This document shows, in pieces, positions 3,611 to 20,640 of a DNA stretch of 25,199 nucleotides. Position numbers and translations under genes: made by a program. Location: positions 1 to 25,199 of IMG/VR virus record IMGVR_UViG_3300046369_000062; one strand, given 5' to 3'. The notes under the pieces were generated by a model. It was given only the letters and a program-made list of their open reading frames with translations, was not told the DNA's origin and did not search any database. The stretch comes from a virus. How positions within the stretch are numbered: the stretch's first letter is position 1; each line of letters begins with the position of its first letter.

Positions 3611-3839
3611 TATTGTAGGACAACAACCAAGCGAAGAAGTAGAAGACAAACTATTAGATACAGTCAATACTTTATGGATAAGATTAGACGCTGTACCTGA
3701 AGTAGGAAGTCTAGTTGAAATAGAATTATATACTTTTATTTTTAGACTAGAAATGGAGAATAAAAAATACGAATTAAAAGACAAAAACAACTTACACATT
3801 ACATTAATTTATAGAATGATCTATGAAGAATACGACTAA
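3588..3839 (+). CDS. Hypothetical protein, 83 residues
   Basis: A short acidic protein that begins inside the end of the coiled-coil gene (23-base overlap) and ends inside the start of the next gene (17-base overlap). The central part (VPEVGSLVEIELYTFIFRLE) looks like two or three beta strands, suggesting a small beta-barrel or SH3-like fold, and the C-terminus is strand-like (NNLHITLIYRMIY). Overlap on both sides supports translation as part of the operon. I do not recognise the family. Confidence 0.6.
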   Translation: MRIHILTDIVGQQPSEEVEDKLLDTVNTLWIRLDAVPEVGSLVEIELYTFIFRLEMENKKYELKDKNNLHITLIYRMIYEEYD

Positions 3840-4134
3840 ACACGACAAAAGAAAACAAATGCCAGTCTATACTGGAGTACTTAAATATTTTCCAACTGCA
3901 ATATTAGAAGTAAGTAAAGTAAGTCAGCAAGGAAATAAACAACACCACCCTGACAAAGAATTACATTGGGATAAATCTAAAAGCAAAGATCATTTAGATG
4001 CAGGAGTAAGACATATAATTGATCATAGTAATCACCCAATAGATGAGGACGGAATGCTACATTTAGCAAAAGCAGCTTGGCGAATACTAGCAGCATTACA
4101 AGAGTACAAAGACACACACATAACAAAAACATAA
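3823..4134 (+). CDS. dATP/dGTP diphosphohydrolase-like protein (dGTP_diPhyd_N / DUF5664 type)
   Basis: 103 residues. The pattern matches the phage family annotated as dATP/dGTP diphosphohydrolase N-terminal: KYFPTAILEVSKVSQQGNKQ (21-40), a W in LHWDK (49), DAGVRHIIDH (59-68) and DEDGMLHLAKAAWRILAALQ (74-93). In all-alpha NTP pyrophosphatases such helices carry the acidic and histidine residues that hold metal ions. The usual role is hydrolysis of purine dNTPs, which can alter nucleotide pools or protect modified DNA synthesis. In phages with 2-aminoadenine DNA a related activity accompanies PurZ; no PurZ or matching polymerase is visible here, so only a nucleotide-pool role is suggested. The start overlaps the upstream gene by 17 bases. 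Confidence 0.65.
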   Translation: MKNTTKHDKRKQMPVYTGVLKYFPTAILEVSKVSQQGNKQHHPDKELHWDKSKSKDHLDAGVRHIIDHSNHPIDEDGMLHLAKAAWRILAALQEYKDTHITKT

Positions 4135-4138
4135 AACA

Positions 4139-4915
4139 ATGAACACACAAGTACAATTATTAGACGGTAAAAATTACAATCAAACAGAACTATTATCCAA
4201 AATGGTAGATGACAAATTCTACTATGGGTTTATGAATACGTTCGCATTTAGTAGCAGTACAATAAAACTATTACTAGAGTCACCTAAAACATATTACAAT
4301 GTTATGAAGTATGGATCGCCAACAAGTCAAGCTATGCGAGATGGTCTGTTATTTCATTTATTAATATTAGAGCCTGAAGTCTTTGATAAAAAAATATTTG
4401 TAGATGTACAAAGTAAAAACACAAAGAAATACAAATTAGCAAAAGAAGAACACGGAGAAGTTTATACATTAAAAGAAAAGAATGACGCAGAAAGATTAGC
4501 AGAATCGTTTTACAGAAATGAACCTGCTATGCAAATGATAAAAGGTTGTAAAAACGAAACACCTGCTGTCGGATTAGTACAAGGAAAACCGTTTCGTGCT
4601 AAAGCAGATTTGTTGCATAAGAATTATATATGTGATATAAAAACTACAAACAATATTAAAAGTTTTGAGCATAGTGCATTTAACTTTCACTATGACGTAC
4701 AAGCATATATTTATACTGAATTATTTAATCAACCTAATTTTAGATTTATTGTAGTAGACAAAGGATCAAGAGATATTGGAATAAGTCAACCTGTTTCAAA
4801 AGAGTTTATACAAAGTGGCAGAGATAAAGTTGCATACGCATTAAATATATATCAAAAGTATTTCGAAACAGATGAAGTAGAATTAGATGATTATTACATA
4901 GACATAGAATTATAA
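4139..4915 (+). CDS. RecE-like PD-(D/E)XK exonuclease (DUF3799 type)
   Basis: 258 residues. Motifs in order: a start helix with FSSSTIKLLLESPKTYY (37-53), GLLFHLLILEPE (69-80, conserved His in the helix before the core), E140 in NETPA, FRAKADLL (152-159, D157), ICDIKTT (164-170, D166-x-K168), and the helix DVQAYIYTELF (186-196) with Gln and Tyr. This is the layout of the RecE / lambda-exonuclease-like C-terminal nuclease domain. It would degrade one strand of duplex ends for single-strand annealing recombination. No clear RecT or Beta partner is visible; the OB-fold candidate at 243-788 could serve that role but this is speculation. The ATG lies four bases after the upstream stop. Confidence 0.8.
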   Translation: MNTQVQLLDGKNYNQTELLSKMVDDKFYYGFMNTFAFSSSTIKLLLESPKTYYNVMKYGSPTSQAMRDGLLFHLLILEPEVFDKKIFVDVQSKNTKKYKLAKEEHGEVYTLKEKNDAERLAESFYRNEPAMQMIKGCKNETPAVGLVQGKPFRAKADLLHKNYICDIKTTNNIKSFEHSAFNFHYDVQAYIYTELFNQPNFRFIVVDKGSRDIGISQPVSKEFIQSGRDKVAYALNIYQKYFETDEVELDDYYIDIEL

Positions 4916-4944: not shown

Positions 4945-5367
4945 ATGTTTACATACAAAATAATAAAAGACGTAAAAAATATTACTGGAGTAAATTTCTT
5001 TCAAAAGAAACGTGCAATGGAATATGTAGAAGCAAGATCATTCTTTGTGCATATACTTAAAAACTATTATAAATTAAGAAACAAAGACATTATAGATTTA
5101 TTTAATGATATGGGATTTCCTATGGATAGTGCAACTTTGTGTCACTCGTTAAAAATGTTTGAGATATATAATAATAACAATCAAAGAATGAGAGATTGGT
5201 TTGGTGCATTATTTGAAATACCTGACTTTAGAAATATATCAAATGCTAGAGCATACATAGCGTTAAAAGTTAATGATTTGCCTGACGATGCAATATTTAA
5301 AATGGCAGCACAAATGCAAACTTTATTAAAAGACAAAGAATATGAAGAAGTAACATTTGATTGGTAA
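4945..5367 (+). CDS. DnaA domain IV-like DNA-binding protein
   Basis: 140 residues. Residues 22-75 read like the DNA-binding domain IV of DnaA: KRAMEYVEARSFFVHILKNY (an AR motif and helix), then KDIIDLFND, then DSATLCHSLKMFE (61-73), which corresponds to the DnaA signature DHATVLHAxKxxE. No AAA+ ATPase domain is present, so it is a stand-alone DNA-binding module followed by about 65 residues of unknown helical sequence. Such a protein could recognise a phage origin, or act as a repressor or competitor at DnaA boxes. The first real gap in the early operon (29 bases) precedes it and contains a direct repeat. The assignment rests on motif resemblance by eye. Confidence 0.55.
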   Translation: MFTYKIIKDVKNITGVNFFQKKRAMEYVEARSFFVHILKNYYKLRNKDIIDLFNDMGFPMDSATLCHSLKMFEIYNNNNQRMRDWFGALFEIPDFRNISNARAYIALKVNDLPDDAIFKMAAQMQTLLKDKEYEEVTFDW

Positions 5368-5369
5368 TT

Positions 5370-5915
5370 ATGAAACAACAAATATCTATAGACAAGGTAA
5401 TACCTAACAGCGATAACCCAAGAGTAATAAAAGACTATAAGTTTAAAAAACTTGTAAGTAGTTTAAAATCGTTTCCAGAAATGTTAGAAAAACGACCAAT
5501 AATTGTAGACGAGAATATGGTTGTGTTAGGTGGCAATATGAGATTAAAAGCGTGTACACAAGCAGGTCTAAAAGATATATGGATAGACATAGCAGAAGGT
5601 TGGACAGACGAACAGAAAAAAGAGTTTGTTATAAAAGATAATACAAGCTATGGTGAATGGGATTGGGATCTATTAGCAAACGAATACAATACAGATCAAT
5701 TAACAGATTGGGGAATGGACGTATTTAATCCATCACTTGATGTAGATTTTACACCTGACTACAACCCTAATTCTGATCAACGTCAACTTACAAAAGAAGA
5801 ATACGAAAAAAGAAAACAGCAACTAGATAATAAAAATTTAGAAACTGATAGAGATTTTATACAATGTATCTGTCCAAATTGTTTTCACGAATTTAACGTA
5901 GACGCTAAACAATAA
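5370..5915 (+). CDS. ParB/Srx-like domain protein with C-terminal zinc ribbon
   Basis: 181 residues from ATG 5370, three bases after the upstream stop; a TTG nine bases earlier is less likely. Core ParB-like motifs: NSDNPRVIKDYKFKKLVSSL (near 14-33), KRPIIVDENMVVLGGNMRLK (41-60, with the GGNMR box at 54-58) and FVIKDNTSYGEWDWDLLANE (86-105). The last segment is typical of ParB domains fused to phage adenine methyltransferases, but no methyltransferase follows. Instead the chain ends with a CxC-PNC cluster (C166, C168, C171), a half zinc ribbon. ParB-fold proteins bind CTP or act as nucleases, and DNA binding is likely. It opens the accessory cassette that contains the PAPS-reductase-like protein and a second ParB-like protein. 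Confidence 0.75.
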   Translation: MKQQISIDKVIPNSDNPRVIKDYKFKKLVSSLKSFPEMLEKRPIIVDENMVVLGGNMRLKACTQAGLKDIWIDIAEGWTDEQKKEFVIKDNTSYGEWDWDLLANEYNTDQLTDWGMDVFNPSLDVDFTPDYNPNSDQRQLTKEEYEKRKQQLDNKNLETDRDFIQCICPNCFHEFNVDAKQ

Positions 5916-5918
5916 TAA

Positions 5919-6200
5919 ATGAACAAGCTAACATTACACGAACAGGCTTGTAAGACTCTGTCTGAAACAAAGTTTACATTCGCTAAGAGTATGCCAAAAA
6001 TACCACACGATTGGAGTGCTAGAGAAGAATGGAATAGTGACAAAGAGTTTGAGGATATGGTAATTTATATAAGAGAGTATGGAGTACCTGAAAAGTTTTG
6101 GAGAAAAACATATATTTATCTTTATGCAAACGGATATAAGTATTGGACACTAGGCAACCCTATAGAAACTACAAGAATAATTAACAGAGTAAAAGTGTAA
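5919..6200 (+). CDS. Conserved phage protein of unknown function with YWTLG motif
   Basis: 93 residues. Distinctive elements: IPHDWSAREEWNSDKEFEDM (28-47), then VIYIREYGVPEKFWRKTYIY, then YKYWTLGNPIETTRIINRVK (73-92). I recall the pattern W..R..W, IR..G.PE.F and YWTxGxPi..T..INR from other Bacteroidota phages, where it also sits near DNA-modification-like genes, but no function is known to me. It starts three bases after the ParB-like gene and its stop overlaps the GNAT start (TAATG), so it is part of the same cassette. The aromatic-rich end suggests a small globular protein rather than a coiled coil. Confidence 0.65.
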   Translation: MNKLTLHEQACKTLSETKFTFAKSMPKIPHDWSAREEWNSDKEFEDMVIYIREYGVPEKFWRKTYIYLYANGYKYWTLGNPIETTRIINRVKV

Positions 6201-6586
6201 TGGAGATTAAACTTACATATGATATTAATAGTGTATGTAAAGATCTAGTCGAGTTATCAAAGAAAGAGGGTTTGTTGTTTAATAAAAATATATTGTTTTT
6301 TATATTATATAATAATACAGAAGTCGTTGGTTTTTTTGGTTTAAAAATACATACAAAGACAGCAAACATTAAGTGTGATTATGTTACAAAAAAATACAGA
6401 GGTAACAAGTTACTAACTAAAATGATTATACATAGAATAAATTGGTTGCGAAAACATAAGCCATCTGTTAATAAAATATCTTTAACGACAACACCAATGG
6501 CAACTAATTCACATTTAAGATGTGGTGCAAAAATTGTAAAGACATATAAAAACGGAATAACAAAATTAGAGTATGAAATTTTATAG
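6200..6586 (+). CDS. GNAT-family N-acetyltransferase
   Basis: 128 residues. The central strand EVVGFFGLKI (41-50) is followed by the acetyl-CoA-binding motif YVTKKYRGNKLLTKMI (61-76), where RGNKL stands for the R/Q-x-x-G-x-G/A loop, then a late motif with NSHLRCGAKIVKTYKNG (103-119). This is the GNAT fold in a short form. It would transfer an acetyl or other acyl group to a protein, small molecule or modified base; the substrate cannot be read from sequence. It is encoded between the YWTLG protein (1-base overlap) and the PAPS-reductase-like gene (14-base overlap), so it may take part in the same pathway. Confidence 0.75.
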   Translation: MEIKLTYDINSVCKDLVELSKKEGLLFNKNILFFILYNNTEVVGFFGLKIHTKTANIKCDYVTKKYRGNKLLTKMIIHRINWLRKHKPSVNKISLTTTPMATNSHLRCGAKIVKTYKNGITKLEYEIL

Positions 6587-7745
6587 CAATACAAATGTTT
6601 ATGATGAATCAATAAAAAGGATCGAATACTTTTTTAATGAGTTCGAAGAAGTTGTTGTAGGATTTTCAGGTGGCAAAGATAGTACTGTAACATTACATTT
6701 AGCTTTAGAAGTAGCAGAGAGATTAAATAAGCTACCATTAAAAGTTTTGTTTATAGATCAAGAAGCAGAGTGGCAAGGTACAGTAGACTACGTTAAAAAG
6801 GTTATGTACAATCCTAAAGTAAAACCTATGTGGTTTCAAATGCCAATAGTAATAACTAATAATGCGTCAACAGAACACAGATATTCTTATTGTTGGGACG
6901 CTAAAAAGAAAGACGAATGGTTGCATAAACAAGACAAGATAAGCATAAAGAAAAATATATATAAAACAGAAAGGTTTCACGATTTATTTAAAGCAATATT
7001 TGAAGTAGAGTTTGCAAATAAATCAGCTTGTTATTTAGCAGGTGTCAGAACACAAGAAGCACCTAAACGATTAATGTCATTAACATCAGGATTGACATAC
7101 AAAGATATTACATACGGAAAGCAACTTACAAAGAGATTAGGACACTATACATTTTATCCTATATATGACTGGGAAATAAAAGATGTTTGGAAATACATTT
7201 ACGATAATAATATTGAGTACAATAGAATATATGACGAGATGTACAAACACGGAGTAAACACGAATGATATGAGAATATCAAACTTACATCACGAAACGTC
7301 TATACAGAACTTATTATTAGTGCAAGAGATCGAGCCTGACACTTGGAACAGGGTTAGTTCTAGGATAGCAGGAAGTAATTCAATAAAACATCTTAAAACA
7401 GACGCATTTAAATGTCCAAAAGAATTACCTTATATGTTTAAAGATTGGGAAGAATATGCTTTTCACTTAGCAGACAATCTAATAAAAGAAGACAAGTATA
7501 AAAATGCACTATACAAAAGAATTGATAAAACAAAGAAATACATTATAAATGATTTTATAAAACAAGATGTTTATAGAAATATAATAAACACTATTTTGTC
7601 AAGTGATTGGGATTTTACAAAACTAAATAACTTTTTGTCATCACAATATTTTAATACTGTAAAAAAATATGTAGACGGAAAGATAAACAAAGACAACATT
7701 GCAATTAACAGAAAATATGATAAATACATAAAAGGTTTAATATGA
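6573..7745 (+). CDS. PAPS-reductase-family protein, IbrA-like (PP-loop)
   Basis: 390 residues. The N-terminal PP-loop VVVGFSGGKDSTVTLHLA (27-44, SGGKDS 32-37) binds ATP or an adenylated substrate. FIDQEAEWQGT (60-70), the GVRTQEAPKR box (157-166) and YPIYDWEIKDVWKYI (195-209) follow the order of the PAPS reductase superfamily. The C-terminal 180 residues go beyond a CysH enzyme and fit the longer DUF3440-type proteins represented by IbrA of Escherichia coli. An IbrB-like ParB protein follows directly with an ATGA overlap, the known partner arrangement. Proposed roles for this branch include nucleic-acid or nucleotide modification by sulfur or adenylyl chemistry; none is proven here. It differs from DndC by its partner genes. 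Confidence 0.8.
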   Translation: MKFYSNTNVYDESIKRIEYFFNEFEEVVVGFSGGKDSTVTLHLALEVAERLNKLPLKVLFIDQEAEWQGTVDYVKKVMYNPKVKPMWFQMPIVITNNASTEHRYSYCWDAKKKDEWLHKQDKISIKKNIYKTERFHDLFKAIFEVEFANKSACYLAGVRTQEAPKRLMSLTSGLTYKDITYGKQLTKRLGHYTFYPIYDWEIKDVWKYIYDNNIEYNRIYDEMYKHGVNTNDMRISNLHHETSIQNLLLVQEIEPDTWNRVSSRIAGSNSIKHLKTDAFKCPKELPYMFKDWEEYAFHLADNLIKEDKYKNALYKRIDKTKKYIINDFIKQDVYRNIINTILSSDWDFTKLNNFLSSQYFNTVKKYVDGKINKDNIAINRKYDKYIKGLI

Positions 7746-8398
7746 TAAAAGAACTTAAAGAATATTTAAAGACTGCAAAACTAAATGAAGAAGAACAGAT
7801 AATCTTTTTCGAAAAGTTAAAAGAGTTAATACACGAACAATCCCCACTAAAAGATCAACCTGTTAATAGAGTTTTATGGGTAGACATAAATGATGTTTCA
7901 CCGAATGATTACAATCCTAATAGTGTTGCAAAAAAAGAAATGGGTTTGCTATACACGTCTATATTACACGATGGATATACACAACCTGTAGTTACAATTT
8001 ACGATAAGGACAGAAAGAAATATATTATAATAGATGGGTTTCATAGATACTTTACTTGTAAAAGCAATAAAGATATACTAGAACGAAACAAAGGAAGGTT
8101 GCCGATTGTAGTATTAAATAAAAACACTAACGATAGAATGGCAAGTACAGTTAGACATAATAGAGCAAGAGGAATGCACAGCGTTACAGGTATGTCGTCT
8201 ATGGTATTTAATATGTTAGATAATGGTTGGGAAGATAACGATATTTGTAATGAATTAGGAATGTCGGTAGAGGAGTTAGTGAAACTAAAACATATTACTG
8301 GATTCTCAAAACTATTTAAGAACAAAGAATACAGCAAATCTTGGCAAACAAAGAATCAAATACTATTAAAAAAGAAATATAAAAATGACAAAATCTGA
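7742..8398 (+). CDS. IbrB-like ParB-domain protein
   Basis: 218 residues. After a helical N-terminus, ParB-like motifs appear: WVDINDVSPNDYNPNSVAKK (46-65), HDGYTQPVVTIYD (76-88), YIIIDGFHRYFT (94-105, DGFHR box) and the basic RHNRARG (138-144). A helix-turn-helix-like segment, GWEDNDICNELGMSVEELVK (162-181), and a KEYSKSWQ motif near the end (195-202) complete the IbrB pattern. It overlaps the PAPS-reductase gene by four bases, so the two are translationally coupled and likely work together, with this partner contacting DNA. It overlaps the terminase small subunit start by 14 bases. Seen: motifs and pairing. Inferred: DNA binding and shared function. Confidence 0.78.
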   Translation: MIKELKEYLKTAKLNEEEQIIFFEKLKELIHEQSPLKDQPVNRVLWVDINDVSPNDYNPNSVAKKEMGLLYTSILHDGYTQPVVTIYDKDRKKYIIIDGFHRYFTCKSNKDILERNKGRLPIVVLNKNTNDRMASTVRHNRARGMHSVTGMSSMVFNMLDNGWEDNDICNELGMSVEELVKLKHITGFSKLFKNKEYSKSWQTKNQILLKKKYKNDKI

Positions 8399-8741
8399 CA
8401 TACTAAAAGACAATTTACTAAAAGCGTTAGAAAAATCATTAGGTGTTGTTACTGCAGCTTGTAGACAAGCAGACTGTAGTAGAGAAACATTTTACAAGTA
8501 CTGTAAAGATGATCCTGAATTTAAAGCAAAGGTCGAAGACATATCTAATATAGCTATTGACTTTGCAGAGAGTCAGCTACACAAACAAATACAAGACGGA
8601 TCTACATCTGCTACAATATTCTATTTAAAGACTAAGGCAAAACAAAGAGGTTATGTAGAACGTCAAGAAATTACAGGAGCAGAAGGAATGCCAACAAACT
8701 TTTTAATAGAGATAATTGACACAACTAAAGATACAGACTAA
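8385..8741 (+). CDS. terS: Terminase small subunit
   Basis: 118 residues. The N-terminal helix-turn-helix, VVTAACRQADCSRETFYKYC (21-40), is followed by DDPEFKAKVEDISNIAIDFA, then QIQDGSTSATIFYLKTKAKQ and RGYVERQE. This is the layout of small terminases of the phage BC6A51 type: HTH for pac or cos recognition, then an oligomerisation helix pair. It would recognise viral DNA and load the large subunit. It lies immediately before the large terminase gene and overlaps it by 26 bases, and its start overlaps the IbrB-like gene. Confidence 0.85.
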   Translation: MTKSDILKDNLLKALEKSLGVVTAACRQADCSRETFYKYCKDDPEFKAKVEDISNIAIDFAESQLHKQIQDGSTSATIFYLKTKAKQRGYVERQEITGAEGMPTNFLIEIIDTTKDTD

Positions 8742-9879
8742 TATTGTTTATAAGCACCTATTAAACACAGACAAAAAAATTATAGTTGAACAAGGTGGAA
8801 CAAGATCAGGTAAAACATATAACATTTTACTGTGGATTATATTTGAGTATTGCGCAAAACAAAATGACAAGGTAATTACTATATGTCGTAAAGCATTCCC
8901 TAGTACACGTGCGACTGTTCTAAGAGACTTTATGAGTATCTTACAAGGGTTTAGTATATACAACGAAAGATATCACAACAAATCGAATTCAGAGTATTAT
9001 CTATTTGGCAACCTTGTAGAGTTTATTTCGTTAGATCAACCACAAAAAATACGTGGACGAAAAAGAGATCTATTATTTATTAATGAAGCAAACGAATTAA
9101 CATACGAAGATTTCTTTCAATTAAATATTAGAACATCTGAAAGAATTATTATTGACTATAATCCATCGGAAGAGTATCATTGGATATATGATGAAATATT
9201 AGATAGGGACGATTGCGAATTTCACATTACAACATATTTAGATAACCCATTTTTAGATCCTACATTAGTTGAGGAAATTGAAAGACTTAGAGAGACAGAC
9301 GAGTTGTATTGGCAAATCTATGGTAAAGGACAACGAGGAAGTAGTAAAGCAATAATCTTTACACACACATTATGCAAAACGATACCAGAGGACGCCAAAT
9401 TTATTTCTTATGGTTTAGACTACGGTTACACAAATGATCCTACAGCGATGGTCGGTATATGGTTAAAAGACCATACGATATATATTAAAGAGTATCTTTA
9501 CAGAACTATGATGACAGCTAGAGATATACATAATGCTTTTAGAGATATTGGCGTTGCAAGAAATATGATCTTTAGTGACTCTGCAGAGCCTAGACTAAAT
9601 GACGAATTACGCAGAATGGGTTGGAACATTAAACCGAGTATTAAAGGAAAAGATAGTGTAAACGCAGGTATTGATTTATTAAAGCGTTACAAGATTAATA
9701 TTGTAGATGATAGTAGTAATGCAATACAAGAGTTTAGAAATTACAAGTGGATAGAAGATAGATCAGGAAAACTTACTAATGTTCCTGAAGATAAGAACAA
9801 CCATATTATTGACGCCCTAAGATATGGAACATATAGTATAATATCCAAACCTACATTTGGCAAGTATACAGTCGTATAA
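8716..9879 (+). CDS. terL: Terminase large subunit (ATPase and nuclease)
   Basis: 387 residues from a TTG at 8716. Walker A is QGGTRSGKT (26-34), Walker B is RDLLFINEAN (117-126, catalytic E124), and IIIDYNP (144-150) fits the coupling motif. The RNase H-like nuclease domain shows its three acidic residues in YGLDYGYTNDPTA (D235), MIFSDSAEPR (D288) and NHIIDALRYG (D366). Both the motor and the cutting domain are therefore complete, and the length is near the usual 400. The TTG start keeps the LKIQTNIVYKHLL helix before Walker A; the next possible starts would remove it. It packages DNA into the prohead at the portal. Confidence 0.93.
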   Translation: MTQLKIQTNIVYKHLLNTDKKIIVEQGGTRSGKTYNILLWIIFEYCAKQNDKVITICRKAFPSTRATVLRDFMSILQGFSIYNERYHNKSNSEYYLFGNLVEFISLDQPQKIRGRKRDLLFINEANELTYEDFFQLNIRTSERIIIDYNPSEEYHWIYDEILDRDDCEFHITTYLDNPFLDPTLVEEIERLRETDELYWQIYGKGQRGSSKAIIFTHTLCKTIPEDAKFISYGLDYGYTNDPTAMVGIWLKDHTIYIKEYLYRTMMTARDIHNAFRDIGVARNMIFSDSAEPRLNDELRRMGWNIKPSIKGKDSVNAGIDLLKRYKINIVDDSSNAIQEFRNYKWIEDRSGKLTNVPEDKNNHIIDALRYGTYSIISKPTFGKYTVV

Positions 9880-19470: not shown

Positions 19471-20640
19471 ATGAGAATAGTTGAATTAATATTAGATGAA
19501 GAACAAGAGTATTCTGGAATAGAAGCAATATCTATCGTAGAGAAACCTGCAATCGAAGAAGATTTTATTACACTTAATAAAGATGTAGAGTATAAACTTG
19601 CAGAAGTAGATGAAGAAAAAAGAATACTACTTGGCGCATTATTAATACCTAATAAACCTATTTTACGAATGGGAGAAGATGGAGAGTATTATATTTATTT
19701 TTCTAAAGACACGGTGCGTAAAGCAAGTGAATTATATTTAATGGAAGGTAATCAGAATAATGCAACACTAGAACATCAAATGCAATTAAAAGGTTTAAGT
19801 CTAGTTGAGTCTTGGATTGTAGAAGATCAAGAAAAAGATAAAACTGCATTCTACGGTTTAAAATATCCTGTAGGTACTTGGGTGGGATCTGTTAAAGTAA
19901 ACAGCGATAAAGTATGGCAAGAGTTTGTAAAGAGTGGTGCAGTTAAAGGTTTTTCAATAGAAGGCTATTTTCAAGATAAGTCTGCAAAAAAAGAATCTAA
20001 TCTTTCTGCTATAGAAATGCAAGAAGCAGAACATTTATTATCAAACATAAAAGACATTGTATCAGGAGTTAAAGTAACACTAGAGTCTTATAACGATTAT
20101 CCTGCTTCTGTAAAGAATAATGCAAAGAGAGGTATTGAGTTAAACGCAAAAGTAAATAATAAATGTGCAACAGACGTTGGTAAAATAAGAGCACAGCAAT
20201 TAGCAAAGGGAGAAAACATAAGCGTAGCTACTATTAAAAGAATGTACAGCTATCTATCAAGAGCAGAAGAATACTATGATCCAAATGATTCTAAAGCGTG
20301 TGGTACAATATCATATTTATTATGGGGTGGACTATCTGCAAAGAATTGGGCAAGAGGTAAAATGAATGAACTTAATTTATATACCGAAAAAATAAATGAC
20401 GAGTATGCAATAATTGATGATCGTTTAGCATACAGTACTCCTGAAAAAGCAGAAGAAATAGCAAAGAACATAGGTTGCGAAGGACATCATACACACGATT
20501 TCGAAGGACAAACTTGGTATATGCCGTGTGACGCACACGAAACAGCATTAAAAAAACCTTGTTGGAATGGTTACGAGCAAATCGGAACTAAGATGAAGAA
20601 CGGTAAAAAAGTGCCAAACTGTGTACCTATAAAAAAATAA
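19471..20640 (+). CDS. XkdF-like prohead protease with C-terminal accessory domains
   Basis: 389 residues. Residues 1-170 match the S78-type phage serine protease XkdF (Peptidase_S78_2): ATLEHQMQ (98-105, His 102), YPVGTWVGSVKV (132-143) and GAVKGFSIEGYF (156-167, Ser 162) give the expected catalytic His and Ser. Three further modules follow: YPASVKNNAKRGIELN through YLLWGGLSAKNWARGK (210-297), a metal-site-like GCEGHHTHDFEGQTWYMPC (335-353) and GYEQIGTKMKNGKKVPNCVP (368-386). Each recurs in phage head genes as I recall, but the four together make an unusual multidomain protease. The first domain would process the prohead; the roles of the others are unknown. Confidence 0.75.
   Translation: MRIVELILDEEQEYSGIEAISIVEKPAIEEDFITLNKDVEYKLAEVDEEKRILLGALLIPNKPILRMGEDGEYYIYFSKDTVRKASELYLMEGNQNNATLEHQMQLKGLSLVESWIVEDQEKDKTAFYGLKYPVGTWVGSVKVNSDKVWQEFVKSGAVKGFSIEGYFQDKSAKKESNLSAIEMQEAEHLLSNIKDIVSGVKVTLESYNDYPASVKNNAKRGIELNAKVNNKCATDVGKIRAQQLAKGENISVATIKRMYSYLSRAEEYYDPNDSKACGTISYLLWGGLSAKNWARGKMNELNLYTEKINDEYAIIDDRLAYSTPEKAEEIAKNIGCEGHHTHDFEGQTWYMPCDAHETALKKPCWNGYEQIGTKMKNGKKVPNCVPIKK

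Follow-up and report, generated by a model that had tools for sequence, protein, structure and literature searches.

The DNA window analysed here, the whole 25,199-nucleotide stretch of virus record IMGVR_UViG_3300046369_000062, carries five genes that belong to a widespread viral cassette, built from a fixed core and interchangeable enzymes. The core, which encodes a ParB-like protein (ParB1), a small protein termed YWTLG, an IbrA-like PP-loop ATPase and an IbrB-like ParB protein, is kept together across viral loci, usually before the terminase genes, and is joined by varying tailoring enzymes. On balance, we favour the view that this is an operon for the base hypermodification of phage DNA, in which the four-gene core is served by exchangeable finishing enzymes. 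Modification of DNA had also been the guess of the original prediction, and is still the best guess.

All five predicted open reading frames were present on the plus strand, with ends that overlap or nearly touch, and the genes are real, overlapping and operon-like. ParB1 (5370..5915) starts with ATG, an alternative TTG start at 5361 being possible, and is followed by the 93-residue YWTLG protein (5919..6200), a core family without a library match. The third gene (6200..6586) encodes a GNAT acyltransferase, the variable tailoring gene of this locus, and its predicted identity was borne out by a match to Acetyltransf_1 (PF00583, 7.9e-6). The IbrA-like ATPase (6573..7745; phrog_2302, 7.7e-80; PAPS_reduct, PF01507, 1.5e-18) and the IbrB-like protein (7742..8398; phrog_2159, 4.1e-72) are coupled by an ATGA overlap, as had been proposed; the YWTLG and GNAT genes have TAATG in common, and the GNAT and IbrA genes overlap by 14 nt. 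IbrB in turn overlaps by 14 nt the gene for the small terminase subunit, TerS (plus strand, 8385..8741; phrog_4044, 8.9e-10), a neighbour outside the cassette, and the operon thus continues straight into TerS and the large subunit, TerL (plus strand, 8716..9879; PF04466, 1e-22; PF17288, 1.2e-19). The predicted placement before the packaging genes therefore holds in the window, and a terminase was recognised in 73 of the 83 complete loci listed below, usually within 0.6 kb.

Upstream of the cassette lie genes for a DnaB/primase-type helicase (1064-1981) and an exonuclease-VIII-like protein (DUF3799; 4139-4912), and between them one for a 103-residue protein (3823-4131) with a dATP/dGTP diphosphohydrolase N-terminal domain (PF18909, 3.5e-12). 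The last was considered as a member of the system and rejected, as it is not linked to the cassettes of other loci. A recent import of the cassette was likewise discarded on composition, its GC content being within the range of the window. Further downstream, the product of 19471-20637 has protease-like N-terminal and unrelated C-terminal PHROG matches, and is perhaps a fused maturation protease.

The neighbourhood of these genes in other viruses was surveyed by querying IMG/VR with IbrA and, independently, with YWTLG, the best 80 matches being retained, such that the survey covers the clade near the window. The 147 loci found were reduced to 104 after redundancy removal; amongst these listed loci, IbrA was present in 99, YWTLG in 97 and both in 92. 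All four core genes occurred within 5 kb in at least 83 non-redundant viral loci, a recurrence that led us to dismiss a chance grouping. The window's own upstream genes (the exonuclease, the helicase and two unknown genes), used as a control, recurred in just 1-13 of the 104 loci, many contigs being short upstream. Where one partner was missing, it was mostly cut off by the end of the contig, two YWTLG loci without IbrA (L083 and L058) showing no obvious cut of this kind. The 83 complete loci listed are compact, with 367 of 382 adjacent genes lying within 20 bp, and display six gene orders: that of the window in 66, ParB1 last in 13, and other orders in four. That the membership stays constant while the order changes favours a functional link over synteny by descent. 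Of the five genes predicted to travel together, the four core members do so, but GNAT (34 of the 83) stands outside the fixed core, being one insert amongst several that can replace one another.

At least one tailoring enzyme was recognised in 76 of the 83 complete loci listed, and none in the other seven; the joint encoding of base-modifying and decorating enzymes that marks a hypermodification cluster was thus found in these 76. Apart from GNAT, the inserts comprised a DPPW-type protein with weak DNA-methyltransferase matches (28 loci), three glycosyltransferase-like families (25, 8 and 4 loci), an AdoMet decarboxylase (12 loci; PF02675, 3.8e-21), a class I methyltransferase (10 loci; Methyltransf_25 match), an HxD..H oxygenase-like family (5 loci), and a TylF-like methyltransferase and a cupin (one locus each). 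Pfam support is limited to the AdoMet decarboxylase, the class I and TylF methyltransferases and GNAT. The largest glycosyltransferase-like family is assigned on a match to phrog_854 (glucosyltransferase, 2e-6), and the other two, the DPPW-type and the oxygenase-like families on weaker PHROG matches or motifs (DPPW, HxD..H). Tailoring inserts also matched the DNA methyltransferases phrog_498, phrog_67 and phrog_3008. Tailoring genes were denser inside than outside the cassettes (0.44 versus 0.02 per kb), a difference biased upward because the HMMs were seeded from cassette genes. Several inserts are fused to core proteins: YWTLG is joined to a methyltransferase in L013 and L148, to a glycosyltransferase-like domain in L089 and to AdoMet decarboxylase in L064, and in L074 IbrA shares its reading frame with a glycosyltransferase-like domain. 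The cassette GNAT matches GNATs of the PDB by sequence; an hhalign comparison of 22 cassette GNATs with one Mom sequence of phage Mu gave a probability of 0.9% and no usable alignment.

YWTLG constitutes a core protein family that is absent from the Pfam, PHROG and NCBIfam libraries searched, and is recognisable by the motifs FAK(T/S)M, PH, YWTMG and IINR. Its AF2 model (pLDDT 90) had no convincing PDB match (best E 0.7; best VIA Z 4.0), the sole notable fold match being an unnamed viral protein (A0A516LRX9, 1.1e-6), and the modelled fold gives no function. A strict pattern search of approximately 85,000 bacterial and archaeal genomes returned, as a lower bound, at least one MAG contig with YWTLG, which itself encodes the full core.

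ParB1 has a ParB/Srx fold with a GGNxR box, a conserved DN and a C-terminal CPxC, and matches phrog_620 (8e-27). It also matches phrog_498 and the PADLOC model MTase_II, in that the same domain forms the N-terminus of DNA methyltransferases, and we propose it as a putative DNA-targeting subunit. The zinc ribbon previously ascribed to this protein is overstated: one CPxC pair is conserved (C171 in 91 and C174 in 90 of 97 sequences), which amounts to half a ribbon. The DGFHR and TVRHNRARG boxes of IbrB are near-invariant in 96 sequences, and this protein is proposed to be a DNA- or NTP-binding partner of IbrA.

A PAPS reductase or sulfurtransferase of the PP-loop superfamily is expected to need a cysteine. 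In an alignment of 96 IbrA sequences, SGGKDS, D62/E64, R159/E162/R166, D199/D204/W206 and R234 were invariant or nearly so, yet no cysteine was invariant, the best column being C107 (70 of 96). The C-terminal catalytic cysteine (ECGxH-type) of PAPS/APS reductase (CysH) had no conserved counterpart in these sequences, nor did the alignment contain conserved sulfur-transfer cysteines of the DndC/SspD type, for which a sulfurtransferase dyad has been described (PMC10853773). The nearest solved relatives by sequence are FAD synthase and CysD; by fold, FAD synthase (VIA Z 15.9), CysD (15.4) and the reductases (at most 14.7) are nearly tied, and approximately 130 C-terminal residues are scarcely covered by these matches. 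The intact PP-loop, the lack of an invariant cysteine and the proximity to FAD synthase and CysD argue for IbrA as a putative adenylating enzyme, rather than one of PAPS reduction or phosphorothioation, and the sulfur chemistry previously offered for the PP-loop protein is thus unlikely. The proposed likeness to enterobacterial ibrAB stands as regards the adjacent PP-loop/ParB pair, but the relationship is distant: cassette IbrA is 31% identical to that of phage PhiR5_2, and the cassette proteins form a clade of their own that excludes the E. coli phage protein, with two Flavobacterium pair-only proteins nested inside.

In the mechanism that we propose, the two ParB-fold proteins would guide the other components to phage DNA (cf. 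DpdB and DpdA), where IbrA would use ATP to adenylate and so activate a base (a phosphate being less likely), and then attach a small nucleophile to it, much as lysidine synthetase or FAD synthase does. YWTLG may assist in holding the modified base or a donor, or in presenting either to the tailoring enzyme (GNAT in the window's phage), which would cap the new group, and the product could shield phage DNA against nucleases of the host or tag it ahead of packaging. We infer, in this scheme, which bond IbrA makes, what YWTLG does and how the phage benefits. DNA is the presumed substrate because of the two ParB proteins, the DNA-methyltransferase-like inserts, the fusion of the ParB1 domain to DNA methyltransferases and the terminase neighbourhood; distant IbrA loci without YWTLG speak against hypermodification. 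More tentatively, the cassette may represent a new class of base modification that is widespread in viral DNA, in which a PP-loop adenylating enzyme, two ParB proteins and YWTLG act on finished DNA, and the outer acyl, methyl, glycosyl and possibly aminopropyl groups are exchangeable and differ between phages. Phage 'PAPS reductases' and IbrAB are routinely filed under sulfur metabolism or gene activation, whereas we argue that one large clade of IbrA proteins forms the core of a modular pathway of modification. If this is true, unseen and variable bases are predicted in many uncultured phage genomes, and a common annotation puzzle would be explained.

Elements of the proposal have counterparts in known systems. 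Iyer et al. in 2013 reportedly predicted lysidine-like (PP-loop) and AdoMet-derivative DNA modifications in phages. Established hypermodification clusters (Mu Mom, T4 hmC glucosylation, thymidine hypermodification and 7-deazaguanine) likewise comprise phage-encoded GNAT, glycosyltransferase, methyltransferase and oxygenase classes, but the cassette differs in its core of PP-loop, two ParB and YWTLG proteins, and in a GNAT that is not alignable to Mom. The IbrA/IbrB genes of the E. coli ECOR-9 island and PhiR5_2 are also side by side in one operon, though in the E. coli phage locus the pair stands alone, without the YWTLG, ParB1 or tailoring genes of the cassette. Dpd offers a precedent in which a ParB-like protein partners an enzyme that works on finished DNA: DpdB, a ParB-like ATPase, helps the TGT DpdA to insert preQ0 into DNA (PMC12839542); the cassette has no TGT, instead has a proposed PP-loop adenylating enzyme, and is viral rather than part of a host defence island.

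Several other explanations were weighed against hypermodification of DNA. The same enzymes might modify a different target, namely tRNA, a free nucleotide (as a decoy or signal), a host protein or a superinfection-blocking surface glycan. Glycosyltransferases, a TylF-type O-methyltransferase and GNAT are also a palette for glycan tailoring, and the substrates of CysD, FAD synthase and TilS relatives are sulfate, FMN and tRNA; this is nevertheless unlikely given the features that point to DNA, namely the two ParB-fold proteins of the core, the DNA-methyltransferase links of inserts and ParB1, and the position before terminase. Less probable still is that IbrA and IbrB serve chiefly to regulate (co-activate) genes of the phage or its host, the role from which enterobacterial ibrAB takes its name, while the remaining genes are passengers: the family is annotated as 'co-activator of prophage gene expression' and ParB folds bind DNA, but the cassette clade is distinct from the E. 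coli phage protein, the PP-loop active site is intact, and the tailoring enzymes and YWTLG are constantly in company.

The sulfur-based readings fare worse. A minimal phosphorothioation or other sulfur-insertion system using a host cysteine desulfurase is suggested by weak DndC and SspD profile matches (1e-9 to 1e-4; DndC, 8.8e-9), and Dnd, Ssp and BREX-4 also have a PAPS-reductase-family PP-loop protein, DndB being of the ParB superfamily. This is highly improbable in view of the absence of an invariant IbrA cysteine, the tailoring enzymes that would have no role there, and the lack of DndD, DndE or Ssp partners in the window; as originally predicted, this is not a standard Dnd/Ssp set, with no DndD/E or SspB/C amongst the five cassette proteins or the listed inserts. 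An auxiliary PAPS reductase for sulfate assimilation accords with the PF01507 match and with the annotation habit for phage homologues (e.g. PMC6145125), but is scarcely credible considering the missing ECGxH-type cysteine and the constant linkage to ParB genes and terminase.

The prediction of a modified base is directly testable because cultured Microbacterium phages encode the cassette. Rasputia, Hendrix and Leaf harbour genes for IbrA, a YWTLG-methyltransferase fusion, GNAT and glycosyltransferase(-like) proteins; amongst isolate phages, YWTLG was detected in these Microbacterium phages by HMM alone, tblastn with three members giving nothing significant, and for the glycosyltransferase-like and DPPW inserts, too, tblastn retrieved no relatives from isolates. 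IbrB, ParB1 and terminase were examined in Rasputia, where the cassette spans the ends of the linearised record, with glycosyltransferases, GNAT (gp154), YWTLG-methyltransferase (gp155) and IbrA (gp156) at one end and IbrB (gp1), ParB1 (gp2 and gp3), an HTH protein and terminase at the other. The Hendrix genome is circularly permuted (PMC7302621), hence genes at the two record ends are neighbours.

More distant relatives lack parts of the set. Bernardo, Laroye, PJN03, prophi79-1 and 031MP004 encode IbrA and at least two ParB genes without YWTLG, mostly beside terminase, and three of these loci adjoin a methyltransferase. Small methyltransferases with a common ARRVxPE motif lie beside IbrA/ParB genes in Arthrobacter, Bacillus and Mycobacterium phages (L154:5528-6106, L155:7079-7630 and L158:7971-8576). 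Streptococcus, Fusobacterium and E. coli phages have the IbrA/IbrB pair only. In the first two (L160:5998-9349 in Fusobacterium; L152:4767-7817 in Streptococcus), the pair has as its neighbour a large gene, unannotated or for a helicase, which makes this a second and different IbrAB context, and in Fusobacterium phage phiFN37 a ParB gene adjoins a queuine tRNA-ribosyltransferase (L160:10745-12933) approximately 3.5 kb from IbrAB.
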